A DNA stretch of 18,947 bases. Source: an uncultured Rhodospirillales bacterium (lineage in GTDB: Bacteria > Pseudomonadota > Alphaproteobacteria > Acetobacterales > Acetobacteraceae). The stretch spans positions 1 through 18,947 of the forward strand of contig CAIMVB010000061.1 of NCBI GenBank assembly GCA_903844785.1, in the 5' to 3' direction. The notes beneath the pieces are model-generated. The model ran no database searches. It had not been told where the DNA came from and saw only the letters and a program-made list of their open reading frames with translations. Made by a program: the position numbers and the translations under genes. Within the stretch, counting starts at the first letter, position 1. Every line of letters starts with the position of its first letter. Of this stretch, positions 306 through 14,478 are shown one piece after another.

Positions 306-1498
306 TTTACGATGATTTGGGCGTGCCGCGCATCATCAATGCCTATGGCACCAATACACGGCTTTCCGGCGGGCTGATGGCGCCTGAAGTACTGGCCGCC
401 ATGGCGGAAGCCGCGCGCGCCACGGTGGAAATGCACCATCTGCAAGCCGCTGCCAGCCGAGAAATCGCCAAAGCCACAGGCGCTGAAGCCGGCATTGTCA
501 CTTCCGGTGCCTCCGCTGCGGTTTTGCTCGGCGCGGCTGCTTGTATGGCGCGGCTTGATCCGGGCGCGATGAACCGCCTGCCCGATACGCGCGGTCTGCC
601 CGATGAATTCATCACCATCCGCAGCCAGCGCAATATGTATGACCGCGCCTTGCGTGTGCCAGGCGGGCGCATTATTGAAATCGGCATTCCAGATCGTGTC
701 TCCGGCCCTGGCGTGCGCGATGCCGCGCCCTGGGAAATCGCCGATGCCGTCACAGATCGCACAGCAGCAATTTATTATCTGGCGGGTACGCAAAGCGAAC
801 CGCCCTTGCCCGATGTGGTACGCGTAGCGCGTGAGCGGCACATCCCCGTGCTGGTGGATGCGGCGGCCCAATTGCCACCCACAGAAAACCTGCGCCGCTT
901 CATCGCGGAAGGCGCCGATCTGGTGTGTTTTTCCGGCGGCAAGGCTTTGGGCGGGCCGCAATCTTCCGGCATTCTGGCCGGGCGGCAGGATCTTGTTTCA
1001 TCCGCCCTGGCGCAAATGCTGGATCTTGATATGCCGGAAGCGGATTTCATCGCGCCGGCGGAATTCGCGCCTCTCGCGCAAATGCGCGGCCTGCCGCATC
1101 ACGGCATTGGGCGTTCCTGCAAGATTGGCAAGGAAGAAATCATTGGCTTGATTGTGGCTTTGCGGCGTTTTGTAGCGGAAATGCCGGAGCAGCGCAGCGC
1201 GCTTTGGCAAGCGCGGCTTGAAGCGGTGCTGGCGGCCGCGGGCCATCCGGCAAGCCTTCGCCTGATCCCGGATGGCGCCAAACCTGGCTTGCCCATAATG
1301 GAATGGCGCCTGCCCGATGCCGCCACCGCGCGCGCCATGGATGCAAGGCTACGCGCCCATCGCCCCGCCATTCACCTGGATGCCGGGCGTATTGGCCAGG
1401 GCGTACTTGCCATCAACCCGATTGCCTTTGACGATAACGATGCAGCCCTACTCGGCGCAGCGATTAGAGCGGTTTCCGTTCACCTTGGTTCACGGTAA
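302..1498 (+). CDS. DgaE/SelA-like PLP-dependent enzyme (aminotransferase class V fold)
   Basis: This 398-residue protein resembles the D-glucosaminate-6-phosphate ammonia-lyase (DgaE)/selenocysteine synthase-like branch of fold-type I PLP enzymes. The N-terminus runs [14 protein letters not shown], followed by a Gly/Ala-rich cofactor segment [17 protein letters not shown] at about residues 64-80. [11 protein letters not shown] (D186) should contact the pyridine nitrogen. [15 protein letters not shown] places the Schiff-base lysine at K214. The start is the ATG inside the upstream glpK stop, so expression is probably coupled. No DgaF aldolase lies next to it in the window, so the exact substrate is unknown; an amino-sugar phosphate or hydroxy-amino acid lyase is the best guess. 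The last codons ([11 protein letters not shown]) and the stop lie inside a terminator palindrome, so the extreme C-terminus may have been remodelled. Confidence 0.8.
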
Positions 1499-1513
1499 CC
1501 GCTCTAACTTTTT
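1466..1513 (+). terminator. Probable Rho-independent terminator overlapping the 3' end of the DgaE-like gene
   Basis: AGAGCGGTT (1466-1474) pairs with AACCGCTCT (1497-1505). After one T-T mismatch, CCGT (1476-1479) pairs with ACGG (1492-1495), around a 12-nt loop. Five T residues follow at 1509-1513 after a 3-nt gap. The stop codon TAA (1496-1498) of the upstream gene lies within the right arm. The hairpin directly precedes repeat copy A. It could separate the glpK-dgaE-like transcript from the AtuA genes. It could also belong to a longer composite repeat. Confidence 0.6.
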
Positions 1514-1567
1514 GTTTGATCGCATTTTCCGAGTCGCCAAGTGTTCCCACTTGGCTTGAAAATGCTC
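1514..1567 (+). repeat. 54-nt palindromic repeat, copy A
   Basis: The outer arm GCATTTTC (1522-1529) pairs with GAAAATGC (1558-1565). The inner arm GCCAAGTG (1536-1543) pairs with CACTTGGC (1548-1555). The apical loop is TTCC, and the asymmetric internal loop is CGAGTC/TT. The conserved 5' lead GTTTGATCG differs from the other two copies at one base. It sits in the intergenic gap after the terminator and 15 nt before the AtuA-like start. Confidence 0.85.
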
Positions 1568-1582
1568 AAAGGAGTGCTTGGC

Positions 1583-2962
1583 GTGAGTGATCTTTTTCTG
1601 GTCGGTAATGGCGCCGGCTTTTCCGGCGATCGCGTGGACGCCCCCATCCCGGTGATGCGCAGCCTGATCAAGCGCGGCCTGCCGGCGGCGATGTTTTTCG
1701 AATGTCTGGGCGAACGCACCGTGGCACTCGCGCAATTGGAGCGCCGCCGAGACCCCGAAGCGGGTTATGAGCCCATGCTGGAACGCCTGCTGGAACCCAT
1801 TCTGGCGGATGCGGCGCGTGCGGGCATCCCCATCCTCGGCAATTTCGGCGCGGCGAACCCGCTCGCCGCCGCGCGCGCTATAGCGCGGCTGGCGAAGCGC
1901 TTGGGTTTGCCGGAACTCCGCATCGGTCTTGTCACCGGCGATGATGTTTCTGCCAGCATCGATCTGGATAGTCTTGCGGTGCATGAAGCCGATACCGGGC
2001 TTGATATGTCTTCCTGGAAGCTGGTTTCCGCAAATGCCTATATCGGCGCCGCGCCCTTGGCCGAGGCTCTCGCCGCCGGTGCGCAGATTGTGGTGGCGGG
2101 GCGTACTTCGGACCCCGCTCTCGCCATCGCACCCCTCATGCATCATTTCGGCTGGGCAGAGGATGATTGGCAGGCGCTCGCGGTCGGTGCCGCGACCGGG
2201 CATTTGCTGGAATGCGGCAGCCAGGTGACGGGCGGCGTGTTCTGGGACCCAGGCTTCAAGGATATTCCAGACCCCGCCAATATCGGCTTTCCCATCGCTG
2301 AAGTCGGGCGCGATCTTTCACTGCTGATCACTAAGCCGGAAGACACGGGCGGTATTGTGGATATGCGCACCATCAAGGAACAGCTTTTATACGAAGTGCA
2401 TGACCCCGCCTGCTACATCACGCCCGATGTGACGCTGGATATTACGGGCGCGCATCTTTCAAACCACGGCAGGGATCGCGTGGCCGTCCATGGCCTGCGC
2501 GGCGCAAGGCGGCCAGATTTGCTGAAAGTCACCGCCTGTTATGAAGGCTCCTGGCTTGGTGAGGGCGAAATCAGCGTAGCCGGCCCCAATGCTCTCGCAC
2601 GAGCAAAAGCCACCGCCGATGTGCTGCTGGAACGCGTGAAACGCCGCGGCCTTGCGCGCCGCGCGCGGGCTGATCTGATTGGCGTCGCTTCGGTGCATGA
2701 TTCGGATGATGGCGCGCTGTGGCGCGGTTATGATGGGCCAGCACCGCAAGACATCCGCATTCGCCTGGCGGTGGAAGCCACCACGCGCGATGATGCGGAT
2801 CAGGCATCGCGAGAAGCGCTCGCGCTACTTTGCTGCGGCACCGCAGGTACGTCCGGCGCGCGCTGGCGCGTGACGCCACGCATTCTTACCCGCAGCTTCC
2901 TGGTGCCGCGCGATCAGGTGCCAACCGAAACACGCGTGCTGCCCACGCGGGAGTGGAATTGA
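1583..2962 (+). CDS. AtuA family protein, large (DUF1446) component
   Basis: This is a 459-residue DUF1446/acyclic terpene utilisation AtuA-family protein. The family is named after Pseudomonas AtuA in citronellol/geraniol catabolism, but the biochemical reaction is not established. Visible family features are the N-terminal glycine-rich LVGNGAGFSGDR (residues 6-17), the segment ILGNFGAANPLAAA, and the later GRTSDPALAIAPLMHHF and LLECGSQVTGGVFWDP blocks. I chose GTG 1583 because AAAGGAG (1568-1574) sits 8 nt upstream. An earlier in-frame GTG at 1541 lies inside repeat copy A and would add 14 unrelated residues. The cognate small component is at 3750, separated from this gene by a methyltransferase gene that starts 9 nt downstream. 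Confidence 0.88.
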   Translation: MSDLFLVGNGAGFSGDRVDAPIPVMRSLIKRGLPAAMFFECLGERTVALAQLERRRDPEAGYEPMLERLLEPILADAARAGIPILGNFGAANPLAAARAIARLAKRLGLPELRIGLVTGDDVSASIDLDSLAVHEADTGLDMSSWKLVSANAYIGAAPLAEALAAGAQIVVAGRTSDPALAIAPLMHHFGWAEDDWQALAVGAATGHLLECGSQVTGGVFWDPGFKDIPDPANIGFPIAEVGRDLSLLITKPEDTGGIVDMRTIKEQLLYEVHDPACYITPDVTLDITGAHLSNHGRDRVAVHGLRGARRPDLLKVTACYEGSWLGEGEISVAGPNALARAKATADVLLERVKRRGLARRARADLIGVASVHDSDDGALWRGYDGPAPQDIRIRLAVEATTRDDADQASREALALLCCGTAGTSGARWRVTPRILTRSFLVPRDQVPTETRVLPTREWN

Positions 2963-2971
2963 AGAAAGCCT

Positions 2972-3748
2972 ATGAACAATAGTCAACTCCTGAATCACTT
3001 GACCCAACAGGCAGTTGAGGCACGGCGCATGGTATTGGGTGAACGCCTAACCCAGCATTTCCGCGGCGCCATTGCCTATGGGCTTTTCAAGGGATTGCGC
3101 TTGAATGAAAAGCAGGTCTGGGGTCCGGGCGATCTCGCGCCGAAATTGCTCGGCCTCTACGAAAAGGAAGTGCTCGAATCCATCGCCTCAGGGCGTGGTC
3201 GCTGGGATTGCGGCATCAATCTTGGCGCCGGTGATGGTTATTACGGTGTGGGCTTGCTGCGGAGCGGGATGGTCCAGCGCAGCATTTGCTTCGAACAAAA
3301 CGCTGAAGGGCAAGCCGCCATCAAGGTCTGTGCTGAAGCCAATAGTATGGCCGACCATATTTCCATTTTAGGCCAAGCAGAGGCGAATTTTCTTGATCTA
3401 CCAGAACTCCAGCAGGTCAATCTCGCGCGCTGCCTAATCGTCATTGATATCGAAGGTGCCGAATTTGCCCTACTGAACGCTGGCCTTCTTGATCGCCTCA
3501 GGCCAGCGGAAATCATCATCGAATTGCATGGAGGCTTGTTTCCGAAGGATCCAAACATCGAAGCGCGCTTGCTCAACCTGCTGCAAGAACGATTCGATTG
3601 CGAATTGCTCACCATGGGTACTCGCGATCTTTCGGGCATACCCGAAGTTGCGCGCTTCAATGATAGCGACCGATGGCTTCTATGTTCCGAAGGCCGCCCC
3701 TTCCAAATGCGGTGGGTACATTGCCGCCCCCGCCAGGCAGAGATCTAG
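2972..3748 (+). CDS. FkbM-type SAM-dependent methyltransferase
   Basis: This 258-residue protein has the hallmarks of the FkbM methyltransferase family. The SAM-binding motif I is INLGAGDGYYGVG (residues 82-94). An acidic ribose-binding segment FEQN follows at about 107-110, then the family signature VIDIEGAEF (157-165). FkbM-like enzymes usually O-methylate sugars or polyketides; the substrate here cannot be read from sequence. The gene lies between the two AtuA components, 9 nt after the large gene and 1 nt before the small one, so it must be co-transcribed with them. I counted about 55% GC over 3001-3720, against about 64% in parts of the upstream AtuA gene. Codon choice is also less GC-biased, which suggests later acquisition. 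Confidence 0.78.
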   Translation: MNNSQLLNHLTQQAVEARRMVLGERLTQHFRGAIAYGLFKGLRLNEKQVWGPGDLAPKLLGLYEKEVLESIASGRGRWDCGINLGAGDGYYGVGLLRSGMVQRSICFEQNAEGQAAIKVCAEANSMADHISILGQAEANFLDLPELQQVNLARCLIVIDIEGAEFALLNAGLLDRLRPAEIIIELHGGLFPKDPNIEARLLNLLQERFDCELLTMGTRDLSGIPEVARFNDSDRWLLCSEGRPFQMRWVHCRPRQAEI

Positions 3749-3749
3749 C

Positions 3750-4097
3750 ATGACCCAAAATATTGAAACCCCCCTGCACGACATCGCCCATAGCCGCGCT
3801 GGTGATAAGGGCAATCGCGTGAACCTCTCGCTCATGCCCTATGATCCCGCGCATTATGCGCTGCTTGCGGAACAGGTCACGGCGGAAAAGGTCCTGGCGC
3901 TATTTCGCCATCGCGGTGCCACCGGGTGCAAGCGTTACGATCTGCCGCTGCTACACGCCTTCAATTTCGTGATTGATGATGTGCTGGAAGGCGGCGTGAA
4001 TGGCAGCCTCAATCTGGATGGCCATGGCAAGAGCCATTCTTTCCGGCTGCTGGCCATGACCATCGAAGTGCCAAAGGCGCTGCTCAACCGCCCTTGA
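3750..4097 (+). CDS. AtuA-like small (ferredoxin-fold) protein
   Basis: This 115-residue protein corresponds to the small AtuA C-terminal-like domain. In many genomes that domain is fused to, or directly follows, the DUF1446 protein. The signature is IAHSRAGDKGNRVNLSL near the N-terminus, followed by RHRGATGCKRYDLPLLHAFN. It presumably forms a complex with the large protein at 1583. ATG 3750 is chosen because it begins the conserved region and lies one base after the methyltransferase stop; the frame remains open upstream without family similarity. The 3' end overlaps the convergent gluconolactonase-like gene by 14 bp, leaving no room for a separate terminator. Confidence 0.82.
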   Translation: MTQNIETPLHDIAHSRAGDKGNRVNLSLMPYDPAHYALLAEQVTAEKVLALFRHRGATGCKRYDLPLLHAFNFVIDDVLEGGVNGSLNLDGHGKSHSFRLLAMTIEVPKALLNRP

Positions 4098-5040
4098 CGC
4101 CTTCCGTATTCACATACAGCGCATACAAGGATTGCGCCGCCGCCATGAATAGCCGGTTGCGGTAGCGCCCACCGAAACAAACATTCGCGCAGCGTTCGGG
4201 CAGATGAATATGCCCAATCGGTGCGCCGGCGTTGTTGTACACACGCACGCCATCAAATTCCGCGGTCATGCCCCAGCCACACCACAAATTGCCATCCACA
4301 TCCACGCGGAAACCATCCGGCGTTTCACCCGGCTGACACGCCACGAAGACGCGGCGCTTGCGCAGCGTTTTGCCATTCGCGCCGACATCAAAGGCCAGGA
4401 TATTGCGCGGATCAGCGCGGCTTTCGATGACGTATAAAATTTTCTCATCCGGGCTGAAGGCCAGGCCATTCGGGTGGTTTACCTCATCGGTGACCAGCGA
4501 GATCTCCCCGCTTTGGCCATCAATGCGATAGACATTGGTATGCGGCAATTCGGGGGTGGCGCGTTCGCCTTCATAATTCGCCATCAGGCCGAAGGGTGGG
4601 TCGGTGAACCAGATGGACCCATCGGATTTCACCACAACATCATTCGGGCTGTTCAGCCGCTTGCCCTTGTAGCTATCGGCCAAAACAGTGATCGCGCCAT
4701 CATATTCAAAGCGCACCACGCGGCGGCCGAAATGCTCGCACGCAATAACGCGGCCCTGGCGGTCACGCGTATGGCCATTGGCGTTATTGGCGGGCTTGCG
4801 CCAGGCGCTGACGGCGCCGGTTTCCTCATCCCATTTCAGCACGCGGTTATTCGGAATATCGGACCATAACAGGCAGCGCGCATCGCCAAGCCATACCGGG
4901 CCTTCGCCCCAGCGCGTGCCGTGATACAGCCTCTCCACGGCGGAAAGCGGCAGATGGTATTTCTTGAAGCTGGCATCCAGCGCGACAATGGAAGGATCTG
5001 GGTAGCGCAGGCTTTGCTGCCAACGAGGATCTTGGTTCAT
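4084..5040 (-). CDS. SMP-30/gluconolactonase/LRE family protein
   Basis: This 318-residue beta-propeller lactonase belongs to the SMP-30/gluconolactonase family, metal-dependent enzymes that hydrolyse sugar lactones. Visible motifs are GEGPVWLGDARCLLWSDI near the N-terminus, with E as the likely metal ligand. Next come LNSPNDVVVKSDGSIWFTDP, which includes the metal-binding Asn, and NHPNGLAFSPDEKILYV. PDGFRVDVDGNLWCG contributes the catalytic Asp region. ATG 5040 is preferred over the in-frame start at 5067 because AGGGAGAAA lies just upstream. There is no signal peptide, so it is probably cytoplasmic. Lactone specificity cannot be told from sequence; sugar acid catabolism is the usual role. 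Confidence 0.86.
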   Translation of the reverse strand: MNQDPRWQQSLRYPDPSIVALDASFKKYHLPLSAVERLYHGTRWGEGPVWLGDARCLLWSDIPNNRVLKWDEETGAVSAWRKPANNANGHTRDRQGRVIACEHFGRRVVRFEYDGAITVLADSYKGKRLNSPNDVVVKSDGSIWFTDPPFGLMANYEGERATPELPHTNVYRIDGQSGEISLVTDEVNHPNGLAFSPDEKILYVIESRADPRNILAFDVGANGKTLRKRRVFVACQPGETPDGFRVDVDGNLWCGWGMTAEFDGVRVYNNAGAPIGHIHLPERCANVCFGGRYRNRLFMAAAQSLYALYVNTEGVKGG

Positions 5041-5095
5041 GGCGTTTCTCCCTGGGCCATCGCCCAAGCATGGCCCAAGCGCCGCGAAACTCCAA

Positions 5096-5800
5096 TCAGG
5101 CGCGCAGCAGCACCCGCCGGCGTAGCCGCACCGCCCCGGCCGGCATGGCCGCGAAAATGTCTTTCTCTGCCTCCGTCAGGCTGAGGCCTGCCCAACGCGC
5201 CGGGCAAAGGCTGCGGCCTGCTTTCTCCCAGGCAGAGCCAGCGCGCATCAAAGGCGTGAAGGGCGGCACGTAAAGCGCGGCATCGCGGCGTTCCACGCGA
5301 AACATATGCGCCTGTAAAAGCCTTGAAATCTGCTTTGGCGAATAAGGCCGCCCATGGCCGAAGGGTGTATGGTCAAACTGCGCCCAAATGCCGCGCCGAT
5401 TGGGTGCTACCACCAGAAGCCGCCCATCATCGCGCAGCACACGCCAGCATTCGCGGAGCAACCGCCCGGCGTTCTCAGCCGCTTCCAGCCCATGCACCAG
5501 CAAAATCCGGTCAAAGCTCAAATCCGGGAAGGGCAGCGCGTCTTCCTCGGCCAGCACTGATGCGGAAGCGCCGCCATGGGTGAAGCGCGCCGGGCCAAGC
5601 TGCGCCGGGGAAAGCGCGATGCAGCGCGCGGCCTCATCACGCCACAGCGGCAAATAAGGCTCCGCATGGCCAATCCCTAGCACGGAAAGCCCCGTCAGGC
5701 GCGGCCAAAGCGTGGCCAGCCGCCGGCGCAGCAGGCGCGCGGTCAGCCCGCCCGCCGGTGCGGCGTAGAATGCGGCCAGGCCATGGATTTCCTCTGCCAT
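5096..5800 (-). CDS. Class I SAM-dependent methyltransferase (type 11), gloB-divergent
   Basis: This 234-residue methyltransferase matches a family often found divergent from gloB in alphaproteobacteria (from memory). It begins with the characteristic FYAAPAGGLTARLLRRRL. A degenerate motif I follows (LSVLGIGHAEPYLPLW). The Methyltransf_11 core then has LPFPDLSFDRILLVHGLE and LLRECWRVLRDDGRLLVVAPN. The substrate is unknown. ATG 5800 matches where family proteins start. There is no Shine-Dalgarno sequence before it, but a TATATC box (5813-5808) lies 7 nt upstream, so the message could be leaderless. The reading frame stays open across the antisense of gloB as far as 6454, but that extension is a composition artefact. 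Confidence 0.82.
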   Translation of the reverse strand: MAEEIHGLAAFYAAPAGGLTARLLRRRLATLWPRLTGLSVLGIGHAEPYLPLWRDEAARCIALSPAQLGPARFTHGGASASVLAEEDALPFPDLSFDRILLVHGLEAAENAGRLLRECWRVLRDDGRLLVVAPNRRGIWAQFDHTPFGHGRPYSPKQISRLLQAHMFRVERRDAALYVPPFTPLMRAGSAWEKAGRSLCPARWAGLSLTEAEKDIFAAMPAGAVRLRRRVLLRA

Positions 5801-5822
5801 AAGGGTAGATATAGGCACTTCC

Positions 5823-5843
5823 GGGGCCGCTTGGCATGGCCCC
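5823..5843. promoter_or_regulatory. Inverted repeat in the gloB/methyltransferase divergent gap
   Basis: GGGGCC (5823-5828) and GGCCCC (5838-5843) form a perfect 6-bp inverted repeat with a 9-nt spacer. It lies in the 60-bp region between the divergent starts at 5800 and 5861. It could be an operator or a leader hairpin of gloB. In GC-rich DNA a match of this size can also arise by chance. Confidence 0.22.
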
Positions 5844-5860
5844 CTGACAAGGCACCCCCT

Positions 5861-6586
5861 ATGGCACTCACTGCGACCCCCATCCCCTGCCTTTCCGACA
5901 ACTACGCTTGGCTGCTCCGCGCCGCCGATGGCAGGCTTGCGGTCTGCGATCCGGCGGAAGACGCCCCCGTGGCCGCGGTGGTAGAGGCCATGGGCGGCAA
6001 GCTCGACCTTATTTTGCTGACGCATCACCACGGGGACCACGTGGCGGGCGTGCCGGGGCTGGTCGCGCGCTATGGCGCCAAGGTGGTGGGCGCCGCGGCG
6101 GATCAGCACCGCCTGCCGCCACTCGATCAGGCGGTGGCGCCGGGGGATAGCGTGGATGTGCTCGGCAGCAAGGCAGCGGTATTGGCGAGCGATGGCCACA
6201 CACGCGGCCATATCGCCTTCCATATCGCCGATTCGCATATTCTGCTGTGTGGCGACACTTTGTTCTCGCTGGGCTGCGGGCGGCTTTTGGAAGGCACGCC
6301 AGCACAGATGTTCGCCTCGCTTGCCGCCCTTGCCGCTTTGCCGGGAGAAACGCTGGTCTGCTGCGGGCATGAATACACCGAAAGCAATGCGCGCTTTGCC
6401 ATCACCGTTGAACCGGATAACGCCGCGCTGAAGGCGCGCATCGCGGAAGTCCACGCCCAGCGCGCAGCCGGCAAGCCGACGCTGCCCAGCACCATTGCTT
6501 CAGAACGCGCCGCCAATCCCTTTATGCGCGCGCCCGATATCGCGACGCTTGCCCGCATCCGTGCGGGCAAGGATACATTTCGCTAA
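5861..6586 (+). CDS. gloB: Hydroxyacylglutathione hydrolase (glyoxalase II)
   Basis: GloB hydrolyses S-lactoylglutathione to D-lactate and glutathione, completing methylglyoxal detoxification in the cytosol. The 241-residue length is normal. The metallo-beta-lactamase metal motif THHHGDH lies at residues 54-60 (H55, H57, D59, H60). Further ligands lie in SDGHTRGHIAFH and in CGDTLFSLGCGRLLEG, and CGHEYTESNARFA is typical of glyoxalase II. The C-terminal family domain ends with NPFMRAPD. ATG 5861 fits the conserved IPCLSDNYAWLL start. A 10-bp perfect hairpin is encoded by the last codons, and repeat copy B starts 5 nt after the stop. A glutathione S-transferase gene follows, consistent with glutathione-linked detoxification. 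Confidence 0.93.
   Translation: MALTATPIPCLSDNYAWLLRAADGRLAVCDPAEDAPVAAVVEAMGGKLDLILLTHHHGDHVAGVPGLVARYGAKVVGAAADQHRLPPLDQAVAPGDSVDVLGSKAAVLASDGHTRGHIAFHIADSHILLCGDTLFSLGCGRLLEGTPAQMFASLAALAALPGETLVCCGHEYTESNARFAITVEPDNAALKARIAEVHAQRAAGKPTLPSTIASERAANPFMRAPDIATLARIRAGKDTFR
6548..6571 (+). other. Strong hairpin within the 3' end of gloB
   Basis: CTTGCCCGCA (6548-6557) and TGCGGGCAAG (6562-6571) pair perfectly over 10 bp with loop TCCG. The hairpin ends 12 nt before the stop codon. No uridine run of four or more follows, so it is not a textbook terminator. It may stabilise the 3' end or act together with the repeat that follows. Confidence 0.45.
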
Positions 6587-6591
6587 ATCAT

Positions 6592-6645
6592 GTTTGGTCG
6601 CATTTTCCGAGTCGCCAAGTGCAAGCACTTGGCTTGAAAATGCTC
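6592..6645 (+). repeat. 54-nt palindromic repeat, copy B
   Basis: The outer arms are GCATTTTC (6600-6607) and GAAAATGC (6636-6643). The inner arms are GCCAAGTG (6614-6621) and CACTTGGC (6626-6633). The apical loop is CAAG and the internal loop CGAGTC/TT. It is identical to copy A except for one base in the 5' lead and the loop. It lies 5 nt after the gloB stop and 24 nt before the GST start. Confidence 0.85.
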
Positions 6646-6669
6646 CAATCTTCAACAAGGAAACGCCCC

Positions 6670-7269
6670 ATGAAACTGCATTACTCCCCAGCCAGCCCCT
6701 ATGTGCGGAAAGTGATGGTCTGCGCCATTGCCCGCGGCATTGCCGGGCTTTTGGAAAAAGTCTCCACCAACCCGCATCAATCGCCGGCTGATTTGCTGGC
6801 CGATAACCCGCTGTCCAAAGTGCCTGCTTTGGTCACGAATGATGGCATCGCCATTTATGACAGCCCGGTGATTTGCGAATATCTGGATACAATCGGTTCT
6901 GCTGCGCCGTTATTCCCGCCGACCGGCAGCGCGCCGCGACTGAAGGCCATGATCCGCCAGGCCGCCGCCGATGGCATTCTGGATGCCGCCGTGGGCCGAC
7001 GCTTGCACATGAACCACCCGCAGGATGAAGGCCGCAAGGCTTTCGATGCGCGCCAGAAGGCCGCCGTGGAACGCGCGCTCGCCGTGCTTGAAAAAGACCC
7101 GCCGCGCGGGCTTGGCGATATCGGCGCCATCAGCATCGCCTGCGCGCTTGGCTATTTGGATTTCCGCTTCCCGCATGAACCATGGCGCGATGCCTGCCCG
7201 AAGCTGGCCGCTTGGTTTGCGGAAGTCTCCAAGCTGCCACAACTGGCCGAAACCGTGCCGGTTGGCTGA
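6670..7269 (+). CDS. Glutathione S-transferase family protein
   Basis: This 199-residue protein has the two-domain GST layout. The N-terminal thioredoxin-like domain begins MKLHYSPASPYVRKVMV, where an early Ser is the likely glutathione-activating residue. It continues with LSKVPALVTNDG (cis-Pro of the glutathione site) and IYDSPVICEYLD, which binds the gamma-glutamyl part. An all-helical C-terminal domain follows, with DIGAISIACALGYLDFR near the end. ATG 6670 is chosen over an upstream in-frame start because it begins the fold and CAAGGAAA lies about 10 nt before it. The upstream start would lie inside repeat copy B. It sits between gloB and a DUF985 cupin gene. The substrate is unknown. Confidence 0.88.
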   Translation: MKLHYSPASPYVRKVMVCAIARGIAGLLEKVSTNPHQSPADLLADNPLSKVPALVTNDGIAIYDSPVICEYLDTIGSAAPLFPPTGSAPRLKAMIRQAAADGILDAAVGRRLHMNHPQDEGRKAFDARQKAAVERALAVLEKDPPRGLGDIGAISIACALGYLDFRFPHEPWRDACPKLAAWFAEVSKLPQLAETVPVG

Positions 7270-7275
7270 CACGCC

Positions 7276-7734
7276 ATGATTGACCTGCGCGACCCGGCCG
7301 TGACCGCCGCGCAGGTCATTGCCGCGCTTGGCCTCTCTCCGCATCCCGAAGGCGGACATTACCGCGAAATCTGGCGCGATGCGCCGGAAGGGGGTGGGCG
7401 CGGCGCGGGCACGGCGATTTATTTCCTGCTGGCCGCCGATGAATTCAGCCATTGGCACCGCGTGGATGCCGCCGAAGCCTGGCATTGGTATGCGGGCGGC
7501 CCCCTTGCGCTGAGCCTTTCCGCTAATGGCCATGATGCGGAAGCCGTTCATCTCGGCCCCGATCTTTCCCGCCATCAGCGCCCCTTTGCCATGGTGCCGA
7601 AGGGCTGGTGGCAAAGCGCTGTCTCCCTTGGCCGCTGGACCCTTGTCGGCTGCACCGTCAGCCCCGCCTTTGATTTCGCCGGCTTTGAATTGGCGCCGCC
7701 CGATTGGCGCCCCACCCCAAGGGGAAGCACATGA
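7276..7734 (+). CDS. Cupin domain-containing protein (DUF985/Cupin_5)
   Basis: This 152-residue protein matches the DUF985 (Cupin_5) family. The sequence LGLSPHPEGGHYREIWRD at the N-terminus is its signature. TAIYFLLAADEFSHWHRVDAAEAWHWYAGG, in the middle, carries the cupin metal-ligand histidines. VPKGWWQSAVSLGRWTLVGCTVSPAFDFAGFE is the conserved C-terminal block. The catalytic role of the family is not well defined. The gene starts 6 nt after the GST stop, and its own stop overlaps the next ATG (ATGA), so it is the middle cistron of a GST-cupin-methyltransferase unit. Confidence 0.88.
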   Translation: MIDLRDPAVTAAQVIAALGLSPHPEGGHYREIWRDAPEGGGRGAGTAIYFLLAADEFSHWHRVDAAEAWHWYAGGPLALSLSANGHDAEAVHLGPDLSRHQRPFAMVPKGWWQSAVSLGRWTLVGCTVSPAFDFAGFELAPPDWRPTPRGST

Positions 7735-8336
7735 GCACCAGTCTCGCCTGGGATGAACGCTACCAGAATGGCGGCTTTGAATTTGGCGAAGCGCCGAACC
7801 TTTATCTGCAATCCCAGGCACATCGCCTGCGCCCGGGGATGCGTGCGCTGGCAGTTGGGGATGGTGAAGGGCGCAATGGGGTCTGGCTGGCGGCGCAGGG
7901 GCTTCAGGTCACCTCGGTTGATTGGTCCGGCGTTGGGCTTACCAAGGCGGCCTCGCTTGCCCGGCATCGTGGCGTTGCGCTGCAAACCATCACCGCGGAT
8001 GTCGCGGCCTGGGATTGGCCCCGCGCGCATTATGATCTGATCGCATGGATTTACCTGCATTTGCCGCCGGAAGACCGCGCGCGGGCCACACAGGGCGCGC
8101 TCGCCGCACTCGCCCCCGGTGGCTTGCTGGTGCTGGAATGCTTCACCCCCGCCCAGGAAGGAAGGCGCAGCGGTGGCCCCAAGATGCGGGAATTGCTCTG
8201 GAGTCGCTTGATCGTCGAAGAATGCTTCGCTGGGCTTGAAGTGTTGGAATTGCTGGAAGGCACCGTGCTGCTGGATGAAGGCCCGCGCCATCAAGGCCAT
8301 GCGGAGGTGGTGCGCGCCCTGCTGCGAAAGTCTTAA
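7731..8336 (+). CDS. Class I SAM-dependent methyltransferase (TehB-like)
   Basis: This 201-residue methyltransferase starts [20 protein letters not shown], as in small TehB/thiopurine-methyltransferase-like proteins. Motif I is degenerate ([19 protein letters not shown]), followed by [14 protein letters not shown]. The catalytic-domain core is [16 protein letters not shown], with [16 protein letters not shown] after it. The ATG at 7731 overlaps the cupin stop and has AGGGGAAG just upstream, so it is favoured over a start at 7704. The substrate is unknown; detoxification by methylation of small nucleophiles is the usual inference for TehB relatives. Confidence 0.85.
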
Positions 8337-8413
8337 CGCGAAGCAATTATTCAATCAGCCGTCATAGCTTGCCCAAGGTTGTCCCCACCGGGGCGCAAGG
8401 TTACAAGGGAATC

Positions 8414-9076
8414 GTGCAACCCGCGCCGCTCATCACCCCGTCGCTTCTGGCCGCCGATTTCGCCAAACTCGGTGAGGAAGTGCGCGCCGTCACTGCGGCC
8501 GGGGCGGATTGGCTGCACCTCGACATCATGGATGGGCATTTCGTACCCAATATCTCCTTCGGGCCTGGGCTGATTAAGGCGCTCCGCCGCCACACCACCA
8601 TCCCCTTCGATGTGCATCTGATGATCGCGCCGGTGGATTCTTATTTGCAGGCTTTCGCCGATGCCGGGGCGGATCTGATTTCGCTGCACCCGGAAGCGGG
8701 CGCGCATTTGCACCGTTCGCTGCAAACCATCCGGGGCTTGGGCAAGAAAGCCGGCGTGGTGCTGAACCCCGCAACACCCATCGCCGCCATCGAACATGTG
8801 CTCGATCTTTGCGACCTTATTCTGGTCATGTCGGTCAATCCGGGCTTTGGTGGGCAGAGCTTCCTGGAAAGCCAATTGCCGAAAATCGAAAAGCTGCGCC
8901 GGCTGATTGAAGCTTCGGGCCGCGATATCCGCTTGCAGGTGGATGGCGGCGTCACGGCCAAAACCGCGCCGCTTTGTATCAACGCCGGGGCGGATGTGCT
9001 GGTGGCCGGCACCGCCGTTTTCGGCGCGCCGGATTACGCCGCCGCCATCAAGGCGTTGCGCGGGGGCGCGGCATGA
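8414..9076 (+). CDS. rpe: Ribulose-phosphate 3-epimerase
   Basis: Rpe interconverts D-ribulose 5-phosphate and D-xylulose 5-phosphate in the pentose phosphate pathway. The TIM-barrel protein has 220 residues, the normal length. It carries the standard motifs: [14 protein letters not shown] (strand 1), [19 protein letters not shown] (metal His and catalytic Asp), [22 protein letters not shown], and QVDGGV with the second catalytic Asp. GTG 8414 is preferred over a TTG at 8369 because AAGGGA (8405-8410) lies just upstream and the protein then begins at the family's usual place. The stop overlaps the heparinase-like ATG (ATGA). Confidence 0.95.
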
Positions 9077-10731
9077 TCAACCTGCTGCGCGGCGCCCGGC
9101 AGAAACTGGCAAGGCTTCGCCCGGTGCGCGTGCCCGATGCCCCTTCCCGCCCCTTCCGAGACCTTTGGCCCGGTGATGCTACGCGCGGCGCGCGGCTTTT
9201 GCGCGGGGAAGCGGATTTCGCCGGCACCATCCGCCCGATGCGGCTTTCCAGCGAAGGGGGCGAACCCTGGGGCGCCCTGGGCGCTTCGCCCGCTTGGCGC
9301 GCGGCGGCGCATGGCTTTGCCTGGATGCGCGATTTGCGCGCCCTGGGTACGGATGCAGCGCGGCTGCGTGCCCGTGCCTTGACGTCCGATTGGCTGCAGA
9401 TCGGCTGGGAAGAAGACATCGCCGATGCGCCCGAAGTGGTAGGCGGGCGCATTTCCGCCTGGCTTGGCCATTGGGATTTCTTCGCCGGCACCGCCGAAGA
9501 CGTATTTCGCCGCCAAGTGATGCAGCGCTTGGCGCAGGATGCACGGGATTTGGTGGGCGCCCTGCCGGCGGAAGACGAACATCGCGGCGCTTTGGTGGCG
9601 CTGAAGGGCGCGCTTGCCGCCGCCGTTGCCTTGGAAGAAGAAGCCTATCTGCAACGCGCCATCCGCTTTCTGCCCGCCGAAATTGAACGCCAATTCCTGC
9701 CCGATGGCGGGCATGTGGAACGCTCCCCAGCGCTGCAACTCGCCGCGCTGCAGGATCTGATTGAAATCCGCAACCTGCTGCATGGCGTGGGTGTGGAAGC
9801 GCCGCCGCATCTGCTGGCCGCGCTGGATCGTGCCGCGCCAGCGCTCCGCCTGTTCCGCCATGGTGATGGCGGCCTCGCGCTTTTCAATGGTGCGCGGGAA
9901 GAAAGCTCTGCCCTGCTTGATCTGGTGCTGACACAAGGTCAGGCGCGCGGGCGCGGCGCCGTGGAATTGCCAGATACAGGCTTTCAGCGCCTGCAAGCCG
10001 GGCGCACGGTCATCATTATGGATGCAGGCGCGCCACCACGCGGGCGCGGGACCACCACCGGGCTTGGTGGCCTGCCAAGCGGTGCGGATCGGTCTGCCCA
10101 TGCCGGGACACTTTCCTTCGAAATGTCGATCGGCCGCGATCGGCTGATTGTGAATTGCGGCGCGGCCCCGGCGGGGGAGGAAGCCTGGCGCGATGCGCTA
10201 CGCGCCACCGCCGCCCATTCCACCCTGGTGCTGTCTGATACCAATTCCAGCGAACTTCGCCCCGAAGGCCTGGGCCGCAAGCCCGAGACGGTGGAGGCAG
10301 AACGCCAGGAAGCCACCGGCGCGCAATGGCTGGAAGTCAGCCATGATGGCTGGCGCGGCCCCTTCGGCGCAGTGCATCGCCGCCGGCTTTATTTGGCCGA
10401 ATCAGGCGATGATCTGCGCGGCGAAGATGTGCTGGAAATGCCGCCCGATGCGCCCGTGCCCATCTTCGTGGTGCGCTTTCACCTCCATCCCGCCGTCACG
10501 GCCAATCTGTTGCAGGATGAAAGTGCTGTGCTGTTGCGCCTTGCTTCCGGTGCCGGCTGGAAACTCCGCGCCAAGGGCGCCCGCCTGGCCTTGGAAGACA
10601 GCATCTATCTGGGCGGAGAGGCGCGGCGCAGCCTGCAAATCGTGCTTTACGCGGAAGAAAATGAGGTTTCGCTGCAATGGGCCATCACGCGCGTGAGCCT
10701 GCCCGGCGTGGCGGCGATCCCCAGCGCGTAA
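9073..10731 (+). CDS. Heparinase II/III family protein
   Basis: This 552-residue protein fits the bacterial heparinase II/III-like family. It has an alpha-helical N-terminal toroid (about residues 60-290, with [10 protein letters not shown] and [19 protein letters not shown]). A C-terminal beta-rich lyase domain includes [26 protein letters not shown] and [17 protein letters not shown]. The N-terminal domain would carry the catalytic Tyr/His. It probably cleaves an acidic polysaccharide, but the substrate is not predictable. No clear signal peptide is seen, so a periplasmic location is not supported. The start overlaps the rpe stop. From memory, an rpe-heparinase pair followed by purH is common in alphaproteobacteria; here a glycosyltransferase follows instead. 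Confidence 0.85.
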
Positions 10732-10756
10732 CCGCGCGCAAAGGCGCAAACGCCGC

Positions 10757-11869
10757 ATGAAAATCTGCTTCATCGCGAATGTGGATTTCGCCATGCGGCA
10801 TTTCATTTTGCCGCTGATGCGGGGTGCCCTCGCGCGTGGGCATGAAGTGGTTGGGCTTTGCGCCGAAGGCCCTTTGCTCGATGCACCGCGCGCCGAGGGC
10901 TTCAGGATCGAAGCCATGCCCATGGCGCGCAGCATGAATCCCCTGGTGCAATTCAAGGCCTATCAGGCTGTGCGGGATTTTCTCAAACGCGAAAATTGCG
11001 ACCTTGTGCATGCGCATATGCCAATCAGCGGGCTGATCGGCCGTGCGGCAGCGCGGGCCGCAGGCGTGCCCCGCATTGCCTATACCTGCCATGGCTTTCT
11101 ATTTAATCAGCCCGGCCCCTGGTGGCGCCGCAGCTTGGCCTTGCAGCTTGAACGCGCCGCCGGGCGCATCACAGATATTTATTTGACCGTCAGTGAAGAA
11201 GAAGCCGCCGATGCGCGCCGGCTTGGCATTCACCCTGAAGCCACGGCGGTGCTGAATGGGCGCGCGCCCGCGCAATTCCATCCTGATCCGGAAGCACGGC
11301 AGATGCTCCGCGCTGAATTAGGCGCGCATCCGGATGATTGCGTGATCATCGCCGTCTCGCGCCTCGTGCGTCACAAGGGTTTTCCCGAGCTTCTGCAAGC
11401 CATGGAAGCAACACCGGCCAATGCGCGGCTTTGGGTGGTGGGCGAACGGCTCGCTTCCGACCATGGCGAGGATATGGAGCCCTATTTCACCCGCGCTGCC
11501 GCCACGCTTGGCCCGCGCCTTTCCAGGCTGGGCTATCGGCATGATGTGGCAAGGCTGCTGGCGGCGGCGGATGTGTTTTGCCTGCCCTCCCATTTTGAAG
11601 GGCTGCCGATGAGCGTGATTGAAGCCATGCTGACCGGCCTGCCCGTGGTCGCCACCGATATTCGCGGCCCGCGCGAACAGGTGGTGTCAGGTGAAACGGG
11701 GCTGCTGGTGCCCCCCGCAACGGTGCCCCCCTTGGCCGAGGCCTTATCGCGCCTGGCCACCGATGCAGCGCTCCGGCACCGCATGGGCGAAGCGGCGCGC
11801 ATGCGCGCGCTGGAACGCTTTGATGAAGCGAAAATCATCGCCCGCACGTTGGATTTGCTGGGCTTATAG
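10757..11869 (+). CDS. Glycosyltransferase family 4 protein
   Basis: This is a 370-residue GT-B fold, retaining glycosyltransferase of the GT4 type. The N-terminal acceptor domain has MKICFIANVDFAMRHFILPL, VHAHMPISGLIGRAAAR and YTCHGFLFN. The C-terminal nucleotide-sugar domain has AVSRLVRHKGFPELLQA. Its E-x7-E signature is FEGLPMSVIEAMLTGLPVVATD. GETGLLVPP is typical of the family. It is likely membrane-associated and adds a sugar to a lipid-linked or capsular glycan. It starts 25 nt after the heparinase-like gene. A 4-bp stem (10743-10754) lies in that gap and no strong Shine-Dalgarno is visible. Pairing with a polysaccharide lyase hints at a surface-glycan role. Confidence 0.88.
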   Translation: MKICFIANVDFAMRHFILPLMRGALARGHEVVGLCAEGPLLDAPRAEGFRIEAMPMARSMNPLVQFKAYQAVRDFLKRENCDLVHAHMPISGLIGRAAARAAGVPRIAYTCHGFLFNQPGPWWRRSLALQLERAAGRITDIYLTVSEEEAADARRLGIHPEATAVLNGRAPAQFHPDPEARQMLRAELGAHPDDCVIIAVSRLVRHKGFPELLQAMEATPANARLWVVGERLASDHGEDMEPYFTRAAATLGPRLSRLGYRHDVARLLAAADVFCLPSHFEGLPMSVIEAMLTGLPVVATDIRGPREQVVSGETGLLVPPATVPPLAEALSRLATDAALRHRMGEAARMRALERFDEAKIIARTLDLLGL

Positions 11870-11876
11870 CGGAATG

Positions 11877-11895
11877 GCGGCGCCAAAGACGCCGC
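11877..11895. terminator. Possible bidirectional hairpin between convergent genes
   Basis: GCGGCG (11877-11882) pairs with CGCCGC (11890-11895) around a 7-nt loop. It lies in the 33-bp gap between the convergent glycosyltransferase and hydratase genes. No T-tract follows on either strand, so it would be a weak terminator at best. Confidence 0.3.
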
Positions 11896-11902
11896 TTATC
11901 AG

Positions 11903-12697
11903 TCAGGTCGAAGCCATCCGCATGCTTACCACACCAAGCGCTCCGAAATCCGCCACCACCTCATCACCCGGCAAGATCTCAAGCGGCACAACGCAAGTGC
12001 CCGTGGTGACAATCTGCCCCGCCGCCAGCGTCACGCCATGGCGCGACAATTCATTGGCAATCCAGGTCAGCGCAATCCTGGGATCACCGAGCACATTGGC
12101 ACCCACACCTTCCCGTTCATAACGCTTGCCAACGCGCCCAATTACGCGATGCTGGGCAAGGTCCATCCCGCGCCAATAAGCGGGCGCTTCAGGCCCCAGC
12201 ACGAATTGATGCGCGCAAGCATTATCCGCGATCAGTTGCGGCGCACCCGCAGTAACAAAATCCGCAAAGCGCGAATCAGGCACCTCAATCCCCAGATGCA
12301 GCGCGGCTACCGCATTCAAGACTTCGTCCATGGAATAAGGCTTTTCGCGCGGCAGGATGGAATGGCCGATGCGAAAGGCGAATTCCGCTTCCGCCACCGC
12401 CATGCGATTGGCGCCGAAGGGCAGTATGGCACCATTCGGATAGACCATTTCCGCCAATATCCTGCCGGCAAGCGGCCCATCCACACCGATATGCTTCTGC
12501 CCCGCGCTGCTGGTCGCGGCGATTTTCCAGCCCCACAAAGGCTTCGCGCTTAACCTTTCTAGCTGCGCCTGGATCGCATAGCCTTCTAGCCGAGATCGCG
12601 GGCAGAGCGCCTTAGGCAAGGCGCCCAGAACCTGACCCGCGCGCCAATGCGTCACCAAAAGCCGAGAGGCTTCTTGAGCTTGCGTCAGATCCATCAT
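11903..12697 (-). CDS. 2-keto-4-pentenoate hydratase / fumarylacetoacetate hydrolase family protein
   Basis: This 264-residue protein resembles MhpD/HpaH-type 2-oxopent-4-enoate hydratases of the FAH superfamily, which act late in meta-cleavage of aromatic compounds. Supporting segments are LWGWKIAATSSAGQKHIGV near residue 55, the metal-binding AEAEFAFRIGHSI (Glu pair), LHLGIEVPDSRF, and the C-terminal TTGTCVVPLEILPGDEVVADFGALG. Two adjacent ATGs (12697 and 12694) are possible. AGGGGA ends 2 nt before the first and 5 nt before the second, so the second may be used. It lies 48 nt downstream of the epoxide hydrolase gene in the same direction, suggesting a small catabolic operon. The substrate is inferred only from the family. 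Confidence 0.83.
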   Translation of the reverse strand: MMDLTQAQEASRLLVTHWRAGQVLGALPKALCPRSRLEGYAIQAQLERLSAKPLWGWKIAATSSAGQKHIGVDGPLAGRILAEMVYPNGAILPFGANRMAVAEAEFAFRIGHSILPREKPYSMDEVLNAVAALHLGIEVPDSRFADFVTAGAPQLIADNACAHQFVLGPEAPAYWRGMDLAQHRVIGRVGKRYEREGVGANVLGDPRIALTWIANELSRHGVTLAAGQIVTTGTCVVPLEILPGDEVVADFGALGVVSMRMAST

Positions 12698-12745
12698 CGT
12701 CCCCTGAAAAATTCACTTCAATAAACCACACACCAACACGCACCA

Positions 12746-13894
12746 TCAGCGCAATGGCCGGAAAAACGCCTGGATTTCACGCGCCAGCACTTCAGGCTGT
12801 TCCATCGCCGCGAAATGCCCGCCTTTCGGCATCACGCTCCAGCGGCGGATATCCGTATAGGTGCGTGCGGCGAGTGATTGCGGCGGGCGCAGAATTTCCT
12901 TCGGGAATTGGCAGTAGCCCATCGGCACATCAACCGTGCCGGGGATCGGCCAAGGGCCATGCATGCGCGCGTAATAGGGATGGAAACTCGCGCCAATGCA
13001 GCCCGTAAACCAATAGAGCGAGATATTGGCCAGCATCCTGTCGCGATTGACGGCACTTTCTGGACTGCCGTTATTATCAGTCCAGATCTTGAATTTTTCC
13101 GCGATCCAGGCGGCAAGACCGGCGGGTGAATCCGTCAGGCCAAAGGCGAGCGTTTGCGGGCGCGTGCCTTGAATCCATTGATAGCCTGTTTCTTCCTTCA
13201 GGAATTCCGAAAGCTCCGCCAGATAACGTCGCTCGGCTTCATCCTGCGTCTGCACCAGCGCGGGATCGCGCCGCACCGCGAGCAAATTCAGGTGAATCCC
13301 AAGCAGCTTTTCCGCATGCACCGCCCCCAGCCGAGACGATACAAAGCCGCCCCAATCTCCGCCCTGCGCGCCGAAGCGCCGGTAGCCAAGGACGTCCGTC
13401 ATCAAATCCGCCAGGCAATCGGCAATGGCTTCCAGGCTGAACCGCGCCTGCCCCGGCTGGAAGGACAAGCCATAGCCCGGCAAGGATGGTGCGACGATGG
13501 TGAAGGCATCCTTGGGATCGCCACCGAAGCGGGAAGGCTCGGTCAGCCGCGGAATGAGATCGAGGAATTCAAACACCGATCCCGGCCAACCATGCGAAAG
13601 CAGCAGCGGCATAGGGTTTGGCCCTTCGCCCCGCACATGCAGGAAATGCAAATCAATGCCGTGAAGTTTGGTGCGGAATTGCGGAAAGGCGTTCAGCGCA
13701 GCTTCCTCGGCGCGCCAATCAAAACCCTGCTGCCAATAGGCCAGCAGATCGCGCAAATAGGCGACGCTTGTGCCGTATTTCCAGGGCGCTTCCGGCGCTT
13801 CATCCGGCAGGCGCGTCAACGCCAGGCGGGTTTGCAAATCCTGCAGCGCCGCATCGGGTATTTGCAGGCGAAATGGGGTTGCAGTGGCGGTCAT
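12746..13894 (-). CDS. Epoxide hydrolase (alpha/beta hydrolase with EHN domain)
   Basis: This 382-residue protein opens epoxides to vicinal diols. It has the epoxide hydrolase N-terminal (EHN) domain, starting at PFRLQIPDAALQDLQTRL. The oxyanion-hole motif HGWPGS is at residues 101-106, and the nucleophile D180 sits in QGGDWGGF. The catalytic His is H360 in GGHFAAMEQP. Tyrosines that activate the epoxide are likely in YWFTGCIGASFHPYY. ATG 13894 is chosen over the track start six codons upstream because GAGGAGG lies 6 nt before it. It is divergent from the small cupin at 13986 and precedes the hydratase gene. The natural substrate is unknown. Confidence 0.9.
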   Translation of the reverse strand: MTATATPFRLQIPDAALQDLQTRLALTRLPDEAPEAPWKYGTSVAYLRDLLAYWQQGFDWRAEEAALNAFPQFRTKLHGIDLHFLHVRGEGPNPMPLLLSHGWPGSVFEFLDLIPRLTEPSRFGGDPKDAFTIVAPSLPGYGLSFQPGQARFSLEAIADCLADLMTDVLGYRRFGAQGGDWGGFVSSRLGAVHAEKLLGIHLNLLAVRRDPALVQTQDEAERRYLAELSEFLKEETGYQWIQGTRPQTLAFGLTDSPAGLAAWIAEKFKIWTDNNGSPESAVNRDRMLANISLYWFTGCIGASFHPYYARMHGPWPIPGTVDVPMGYCQFPKEILRPPQSLAARTYTDIRRWSVMPKGGHFAAMEQPEVLAREIQAFFRPLR

Positions 13895-13985
13895 GCTGGC
13901 CTCCTCACACAAGGGAAAAGCAGCTTGGCAGCGGGCAGACGCCAGGGCTAGCCTGCCAAATCATCGCACCCAGAAAGGCCAAGAC

Positions 13986-14249
13986 ATGACCCGGGATGAA
14001 TTCGAAGCGGATCTGCTGAAGCAGGGCTATGGCGTTTTTTATGGCGGCTTCCGGGCCGGGCTTGAAAACCCGGAACATACGCATCCCTGGGATGCGCGTC
14101 TGTTCATTCTGGGCGGCGAGATCACCATCACCCAGGATGGCAAGGCAATTTGCTATCGCGCCGGCGATACTTGCGCGGTGGCGGCCAATTACCCGCATGC
14201 AGAACAAGTGGGCCCAAGAGGCGTTGCCTTCATGTCGGGGCGCAAATAA
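13986..14249 (+). CDS. Small cupin domain protein
   Basis: This 87-residue protein is essentially one cupin barrel. HTHPWDARLFILGGEITIT forms cupin motif 1, with two histidines and a downstream acidic residue. AGDTCAVAANYPHAEQVG forms motif 2 with the third histidine, consistent with a metal-binding pocket. The ATG at 13986 follows GAAAGG by about 7 nt. It is divergent from the epoxide hydrolase gene with a 91-bp gap, which may hold promoters for both. Whether it is an enzyme or a ligand sensor cannot be decided from sequence. Confidence 0.78.
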   Translation: MTRDEFEADLLKQGYGVFYGGFRAGLENPEHTHPWDARLFILGGEITITQDGKAICYRAGDTCAVAANYPHAEQVGPRGVAFMSGRK

Positions 14250-14287
14250 GCCGCATCGCACAGGGAAGCGTATTCGAAGGAAGAAGT

Positions 14288-14362
14288 TGGTTGGGGCGCC
14301 AGGATTCGAACCTGGGAATGGCGGTACCAAAAACCGCTGCCTTACCGCTTGGCGACGCCCCA
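14288..14362 (-). tRNA. tRNA-Gln (anticodon UUG)
   Basis: The minus strand folds into a complete 75-nt cloverleaf with an encoded CCA end (14290-14288). The acceptor is TGGGGCG/CGCCCCA, the D arm GCCAAGCGGTAAGGC, the anticodon arm GCGGT-TTTTGGT-ACCGC, and the T arm CCAGG-TTCGAAT-CCTGG. The anticodon TTG (14330-14328) reads CAA/CAG. The U1-A72 pair and A73 suit the Glu-tRNA(Gln)/GatCAB route (known recognition rule). The 5' end is only 6 nt downstream of repeat copy C. Confidence 0.95.
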
Positions 14363-14368
14363 AGCGTG

Positions 14369-14422
14369 GAGCATTTTCAAGCCAAGTGGAGCCACTTGGC
14401 GATTAGGAAAATGCGACCAAAC
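14369..14422 (-). repeat. 54-nt palindromic repeat, copy C
   Basis: On the minus strand the arms are identical to copies A and B. The outer arms occupy 14414-14407 and 14378-14371, and the inner arms 14400-14393 and 14388-14381. The apical loop is GCTC, and the internal loop is CTAATC instead of CGAGTC. It lies in the 116-bp gap between the ispE stop and tRNA-Gln, oriented with the minus-strand genes. No other gene is visible in that gap. A run of six T on the plus strand (14425-14430) flanks its outer end. Confidence 0.85.
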
Positions 14423-14478
14423 ACTTTTTTAGTCCAAGTCCAACGCACCTAGGCTCGAAGGATGGCGCCTAATAGCCT

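Follow-up and report, generated by a model that had tools for sequence, protein, structure and literature searches.

Correia and RUP elements are TA-targeting miniature inverted-repeat transposable elements (MITEs) of bacteria, and among the Rhizobium-specific intergenic mosaic elements (RIME), RIME1 is about 108 bp long and has two palindromes. RIMEs are annotated repeats of S. meliloti (PMC2573895), and Bru-RS copies measure 103 and 106 bp (PMC10800456). Br-REP1 and Br-REP2 of Bradyrhizobium are palindromes of 3' untranslated regions (3' UTRs), with Br-REP1 between convergent genes and with an abundance that differs strongly between relatives (PMC5082802). BASRCI27 is listed, in a review, as a small RNA (sRNA) of 166 nt (PMC9751625). 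Here, we describe a palindrome in an 18,947-nt contig (CAIMVB010000061.1, read on the forward strand and called the window throughout) from the draft genome of an uncultured Rhodospirillales bacterium (GCA_903844785.1). A sequence-only reading had noted three copies of this 54-nt palindrome in the window and favored an RNA-level role for it. We found that the palindrome probably forms one hairpin, B, of a mobile element that is non-autonomous and MITE-like and that, as MITEs do, proved to be short, non-coding, multicopy, and inserted as a unit.

Results

Copy number and anatomy of the element

The three palindromes, at 1514-1567 (+), 6592-6645 (+), and 14369-14422 (-), were confirmed, with the arms and the loops (TTCC, CAAG, and GCTC) as the sequence-only reading had given them. 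Searching the window with the inner-hairpin pattern at up to 3 mismatches gave 4 matches, 3 of them exact, against 0.12 expected, and none of 200 shuffles reached 4. The genome of the window (G000) is a 3.39-Mb draft in 517 contigs and is 91.7% complete. In it, GCATTTTC-N15-40-GAAAATGC occurred at 50 places and a reversed control at none. A covariance-model search returned 100 matches at E <=0.01, and we kept the 79 at >=34.5 bits; left out were one antisense duplicate above 34.5 bits and 20 lower-scoring rows that were antisense, partial, or weak. The count for palindrome B is thus 79 copies at 62 loci, a lower bound because only 150 of 2977 first-look candidates were scored, the draft is in 517 contigs, and some copies lie at contig ends. 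This supports the proposed interspersed palindromic family, at tens of copies where hundreds per genome had been predicted. The copies stand head to tail: 49 loci are single, 10 double, 2 triple, and 1 quadruple. We also observed B copies at or near the ends of contigs C2, C136, C310, and C324; therefore, the repeats probably break the assembly.

B has the layout GCATTTTC-CGAGYC-GCCAAGTG-NNNC-CACTTGGC-TT-GAAAATGC, then TC. Among 46 standard-length copies, loop positions 23 to 25 were the most variable of the core, and position 26 was mostly C. Many B copies are preceded on their 5' side by a less conserved hairpin, A (TAGAGC...GCTCTA), and then a T-rich linker of about 15 nt, and all 10 places in the genome with the hairpin-A pattern adjoin B copies. 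An automatic upstream-hairpin search (8 of 61 strong) was stricter than the eye and was not relied on. The full unit is about 103 bp: TA/GAGC-hairpin A-T-rich linker-hairpin B-GCTC/TA, where slashes mark its edges. The 54-nt palindrome had been taken for the whole element; at copy 1 it is half of this inserted unit, and the hairpin beside it (1465-1506) was absent from the sequence-only list. No T-run follows B, as had been stated; at copy 1, a T-rich stretch, ACTTTTTGTTTG, lies 5' of B, between B and that second hairpin. The predicted fold of A plus B at copy 1 has an energy of -42.5 kcal/mol (z -7.2) on the + strand and -50.3 kcal/mol (z -8.2) on the - strand. At L054 (3006-3102), the hairpin-A stretch lies 3' of B rather than 5'; therefore, module order can vary.

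Compensatory changes in the arms, which the sequence-only reading had proposed as a check, were found in the model-aligned copies. Among 85 matches (78 distinct rows, including one antisense and one cut match), 8 of 16 pairs changed on both sides, with 28 cells against 3.8 in shuffles, in an alignment that was fitted to the structure and so leans towards it. An unfitted alignment of the 50 copies with exact outer arms gave 9 cells against 2.0 shuffled and 1 covarying pair; 453 of 500 shuffles also reached 1, so that this pair count is not above the shuffled level.

Empty and filled sites at orthologous junctions

We compared orthologous junctions within the genus, across 35 genomes. Copy 1, whose gene is in 33 genomes, was present in 6 of the 24 junctions compared (G000, G018, G032, G020, G004, and G031). 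It was missing in 12 close relatives (G003, G005, G017, and G021 to G029) and in 5 distant ones, and the sequence of G019 ends too early. The filled site reads GCGAT-TA-GAGC...GCTC-AA-AGGAG and the empty site GCGATCAAGGAG or similar, so that the two differ by the whole A+B unit, 103 bp; the gap between orthologous sites differs by the size of a unit (6 versus 109). Several units at related loci likewise differ from their orthologous empty sites by a complete unit. At the empty sites of copy 1, the upstream gene ends on a stop that overlaps the start of the following gene (GTGA); with the insertion, it acquired a new C-terminus, whose stop lies within hairpin A. Copy 2 was present in 2 of 21 junctions compared (G000 and G003) and missing in 15 close and 4 distant relatives. 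Copy 3 was present in 4 of 22 (G000, G020, G003, and G018, where it is doubled) and missing in 13 close and 5 distant relatives; G032 has a copy past the tRNA. The distant, large-genome relatives that were compared (68-77% protein identity) were empty at all three window sites. Because these are all empty, presence is most simply derived, a polarity read from the junctions themselves.

In the two cleanest pairs (L095/L056 and L104/L094), a filled TA/GAGC...GCTC/TA stands against a single TA in the empty site. A third pair, in which filled L138 has TA...CA and empty L116 has TA, is likely another TA duplication with one copy changed. Head-to-tail arrays, at about 57 bp per unit, also differ between orthologues: L099 has 3 exact copies and L142 has 2, and L121/L166 and L167/L170 differ likewise. 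It follows from these junction and array differences that whole units insert and that the number of B copies also changes locally. They amount to good evidence for insertion. Across the genus, 19 genomes of 2.6-4.2 Mb carry 30-103 exact B copies each, and 16 genomes of 4.2-6.4 Mb carry 0-3.

In one orthologous intergenic region, the unit at L090 (5173) is oriented opposite to that of L052 and L154 in different species; therefore, inversion or independent insertions took place there.

Position relative to genes

Genes were called by our own script, which was checked against the window frames alone. Called genes stand on both sides of 52 of the 62 loci in the genome; another 7 are at an edge, and 3 fall inside a called frame. 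The 52 flanked loci comprise 23 convergent, 13 with, 12 against, and 4 divergent when the tRNA is counted as the neighbor of copy 3 (the script counts before this correction were 24, 12, 12, and 4); convergent sites outnumber divergent ones at a P value of 3e-4. We also took 98 stretches from other species, from metagenome-assembled genome (MAG) records titled Roseomonas sp., Rhodospirillales, Alphaproteobacteria, and Asaia bogorensis. The 93 classed B loci among the matches listed there were 37 convergent, 22 with, 22 against, 5 divergent, and 7 in frames, and all adjacent gene pairs in the same stretches were 103 convergent, 416 co-directional, and 82 divergent. B copies lie mainly at the 3' ends of genes; they avoid divergent gaps, and neither orientation to transcription prevails. 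The window itself probably comes from a member of the Acetobacteraceae. Several of the MAG records with the title Asaia bogorensis share the exact repeat with Roseomonas-titled bins, and the Asaia label looks doubtful.

Copies often abut a stop codon. The genome has 40 opposite-strand genes downstream of B, of which 26 end no more than about 6 nt away from it. In 23 of the 40, the stop codon lies 0-1 nt from GCATTTTC (TGA in 12, TAG in 7, and TAA in 4), often in the forms TGA/GCATTTTC or TAG-A/GCATTTTC, and most of these stops include the conserved GA edge of the unit. We counted TA dinucleotides in 284 kb around the loci: of 5097, called genes hold 4241 and stop codons 108, and 748 lie outside. 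Since most TA are coding and 3 of 62 loci are in frames, we rejected the view that TA targeting by itself produces the 3'-end bias. Therefore, insertions in genes are purged or avoided.

Divergence of hairpin B between species

Hairpin B was 96.8% identical between species at copy 1 (5 genomes), 97.7% at copy 2 (2 genomes), and 89.8% at copy 3 (4 genomes). The flanking protein-coding sequences were 84.1 and 86.1% identical at copy 1, 85.6 and 90.7% at copy 2, and 82.9% at copy 3, where the downstream stretch is a tRNA (94.1%). Hairpin A of copy 1 was 81.9% identical; the A-equivalent stretch is coding at copy 2 (78.7%), and at copy 3 (52.6%) it holds another B copy in G018. Variable columns of B were 21, 23, and 35 at copy 1, 25 at copy 2, and 10, 12, 22-26, and 36 at copy 3. 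By part, this is 6 of 12 columns in the loop, 4 of 24 in the internal loop, 2 of 48 in the inner arms, and 0 of 48 in the outer arms, so that the loops vary and the arms stay, as the sequence-only reading had supposed. The outer-arm invariance is partly by choice, because the search required exact outer arms, which excluded a single decayed copy, namely, the first member of the B pair that G018 has at copy 3. The 98 stretches from other species had been picked by exact consensus among the matches listed and were not used for rates of change.

Copy 1 is the most telling: its A and B came in with one insertion, and of the two, B has diverged less. A rare loop, CANG, is common to G000 and G003 at copy 2, which argues against overwriting by other copies. 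Thus, B looks constrained between species, on limited evidence, because it is less diverged than the flanking protein genes and its changes fall mainly in loops.

Search for a mobilizing enzyme

We searched for the REP-associated tyrosine transposase (RAYT) of repetitive extragenic palindromes (REPs), a possible companion in the sequence-only reading. The Y1 family (PF01797) had no match in the 91.7% complete genome, and a control search matched 5 of 14 known genomes; a RAYT was rejected as mobilizer. The IS630-type family (PF13358) is in 20 of the 35 genomes, including element-poor G006, G007, and G008, and is absent from G000 and from element-rich, 99% complete G018. Among the two best inverted repeats at each of 30 loci, none started with GAGC, and an IS630-type mobilizer was also rejected. 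The IS5-type family (PF13340) is in 29 of the 35 genomes. GAGC ends were found at 2 of 30 PF13340 loci examined: L326 (G001) reads TA/GAGCCCG with TA on both sides, and L325 (G030) reads TA/GAGCCTGACCC with TA on one side. An IS5-type enzyme may be the mobilizer; it is our best lead, and a weak one.

Related units in other lineages

The strict pattern occurred in 4 of 385 genomes of the class: G000, G406 (52 places), G236 (4), and G223 (1). Units of the last three read TAGA-GCATTTTCGAGCGAAGTGGACACCGGTTCGC...GAAAATGCGACCAAACAAGGAC-TTAGAGCG...CGCTCTAG, with the same order on the reverse strand. The L074 unit matched 15 of 72,556 plasmid records, 3 of them over at least 80% of its length, from Shinella (6), Bradyrhizobium (4), Methylobacterium (2), Xanthobacter, Methylovirgula, and Bosea. 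In Xanthobacter, two tandem units are joined at TA, and an annotated RES gene overlaps the last three bases of the unit. The window unit matched two Novosphingobium plasmids over 65 and 68%; in the one that was read, B has inner arms GGCAGGTG/CACCTGCC, with two compensated pairs relative to the window, and the genes on its two sides are convergent. Eight B modules could be aligned gap-free, and Hyphomicrobiales and Sphingomonadales have units of the same layout. The like units in other orders support the proposed kinship to GCATTTTC...GAAAATGCG palindromes of Rhizobiales.

Features in the window

The features are collected in Table 1. At the gathering threshold, Rfam matched the tRNA alone in the window. 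Elsewhere, L073 (1814-2101) has a sub-threshold match to the cspA thermoregulator, at 45.8 bits against 78.

Table 1. Coordinates and strands of the element parts and the adjoining tRNA
Feature	Position	Strand	Remark
Hairpin A of copy 1, TAGAGC...GCTCTA	1465..1506	+	Left part codes C-terminus and stop of upstream gene; absent in empty relatives
T-rich A-B linker of copy 1, ACTTTTTGTTTGATC	1507..1521	+	
Hairpin B of copy 1	1522..1565	+	Outer arms 1522-1529/1558-1565; inner arms 1536-1543/1548-1555; loop 1544-1547
Inserted unit of copy 1	1467..1567	+	Between TA 1465-1466 and AA 1568-1569; ~103 bp longer than empty site
Hairpin B of copy 2 (no hairpin A)	6600..6643	+	Loop 6622-6625; insertion shared only with G003 among 21 junctions compared
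Hairpin B of copy 3	14371..14414	-	Loop 14389-14392
Linker and decayed A-like stretch 5' of copy 3 B	14415..14475	-	Better paired in G020 and G018
tRNA-Gln (anticodon ttg)	14288..14362	-	Just 3' of copy 3

Discussion

In the explanation that we favor, the full A-linker-B unit would land at TA and duplicate it, moved by a transposase acting in trans, for which an IS5-type enzyme is the candidate. The many B-only copies would be units that lost A. Selection would keep the stem of B for its use, in the simplest case that of an RNA hairpin at which transcripts of the genes ending there, arriving from either side, are terminated or protected; the T-tailed hairpin A could act as a terminator in one direction. 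A putative 3'-end RNA role for B is plausible. A consensus scan of 1300-1750, the copy 1 region, gave no terminator-like site, and the label of intrinsic terminator is unproven.

Several observations weigh against a TA-inserting element of this kind. An autonomous partner was not found: PF01797, PF13358, and PF13340 had 0 matches in the genome, a draft that can miss insertion sequences, and all 50 exact B ends, GGCTTGAAAATGCT, in the genome fall in B copies. The genomes of L325 and L326 are without exact element matches, and the insertion elements there share only 4-5 bases with the unit. No clear TA duplication was seen at L113/L183, L155/L141, L156/L047, and L130/L145, and the empty sites of copy 1 read CA or GA instead of TA. 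L119 gained B without A relative to L114, with flanks 97% identical, and B may therefore move by itself. The constraint test rests on three loci.

These points have to be set beside other explanations of the same copies. The sequence-only reading proposed an orientation-dependent RNA element, such as an attenuator or processing site, because all three window copies point with their genes. This co-orientation holds for the immediate neighbors, which at copy 3 are an ispE-like GHMP kinase gene and the tRNA-Gln gene, both on the - strand, but not for the protein gene past that tRNA, which is on the + strand. Constant orientation to transcription fails genome-wide, at 13 with versus 12 against in G000 and 22 versus 22 in the other species, which contradicts the proposal as a general rule and leaves it barely credible. 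Fixed, non-mobile 3'-end structures, that is, terminators that arose in place and were kept by selection alone, would account for the 3'-end position and the constraint. However, near-identical sequence at 62 loci and unit-sized presence or absence at orthologous sites do not fit them, the scan found no terminator at copy 1, and the empty sites already contradict them at the compared loci, so we consider them extremely unlikely. The interspersed palindromes, bulged stem, arrays, and extragenic position resemble those of REPs, which a RAYT would move by acting on their single-stranded hairpin. This reading is very unlikely given that Y1 had no match in the genome while the control found it elsewhere and that the moved unit has two hairpins and TA ends.

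The remaining alternatives accept a mobile repeat and differ on why B persists. B could be kept as a putative DNA site for gyrase, a nucleoid protein, or an integrase, with transcription direction irrelevant. The balanced orientation and an outer arm fixed in sequence, not in pairing alone, are consistent with this; however, the scarcity of copies in divergent gaps and the abutting stop codons are equally compatible with 3'-end use or tolerance, and we regard a DNA site as unlikely. Alternatively, the repeat could be purely selfish, with 3' ends merely tolerant and the apparent constraint on B due to the needs of mobility or to chance at three loci. Purging is evident from the 3 of 62 loci in frames though 4241 of 5097 TA are coding, and A decays. 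However, selection for mobility keeps no individual old copies, and B was less diverged than the flanking genes at 3 of 3 loci; a purely selfish repeat is a possibility that we doubt.

Beyond the non-autonomous mobile element itself, a bolder proposal is that it is a portable gene-end cassette. Mobilized by an IS5-type enzyme, it would land at TA, rebuild a stop at its edge, and bring a T-tailed hairpin along with the constrained B. B would be selected as a two-way 3'-end signal, recurrently across alphaproteobacteria, and some rhizobial repeats and Brucella "sRNAs" would be members. We offer this tentatively, as rather improbable in its entirety, and slightly more so because both IS5 leads sit in element-free genomes. 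If B does shape transcript ends, mobile DNA would have been recruited repeatedly as gene-end signals. The empty and filled sites allow insertion, array growth, and hairpin constraint to be measured. The unit also suggests one two-hairpin architecture for loosely described alphaproteobacterial repeats, namely, those of rhizobia, the Brucella "sRNA" family of Rfam (by layout), and those of Roseomonas-like genomes.

Comparison with known systems

The element resembles the Correia and RUP MITEs in being about 100 bp long and non-autonomous and in duplicating TA, here in the cleanest pairs. It differs from them in its very short terminal repeats (GAGC/GCTC), two internal hairpins, and the lack of a partner insertion sequence in our searches. 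It shares extragenic hairpins and arrays with REPs and bacterial interspersed mosaic elements (BIMEs) that have a RAYT; unlike those, it has a two-hairpin unit and TA ends, and the search found no RAYT. We recognized no description of this element in the literature searched, where subscription coverage was partial, so one may be in print. Br-REP1 and Br-REP2 are alike in being 3'-UTR palindromes, in occupying convergent-gene sites (Br-REP1), and in their uneven abundance among relatives; their printed consensus strings were absent, by eye, from the window copies.

RIME and Bru-RS1/Bru-RS2 are alike by description, as intergenic palindromic repeats of Hyphomicrobiales. Rfam RF02600 (BASRCI27) has the same order of a hairpin, a GAAAACAAAAG-like linker, and a second hairpin, with UAAAGC/GCUUUA edges; it scored 32.4 bits with L074, 29.9 with L340, 29.0 with L307, and 17.0 with the window, all below the gathering threshold of 59.8. 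RF02604, another Rfam "Brucella sRNA" family, also matches the unit weakly. The two-hairpin layout of BASRCI27 suggests that the sRNA label may cover an interspersed repeat, a warning that repeats of this kind may stand in small-RNA catalogues as sRNA genes. Given the same layout in other orders, mobile palindromic repeats of this kind are therefore widespread, judging from sequence, and the window holds a member specific to its lineage; this wider family is perhaps that of RIME, Bru-RS, and the Rfam Brucella sRNA CI27.

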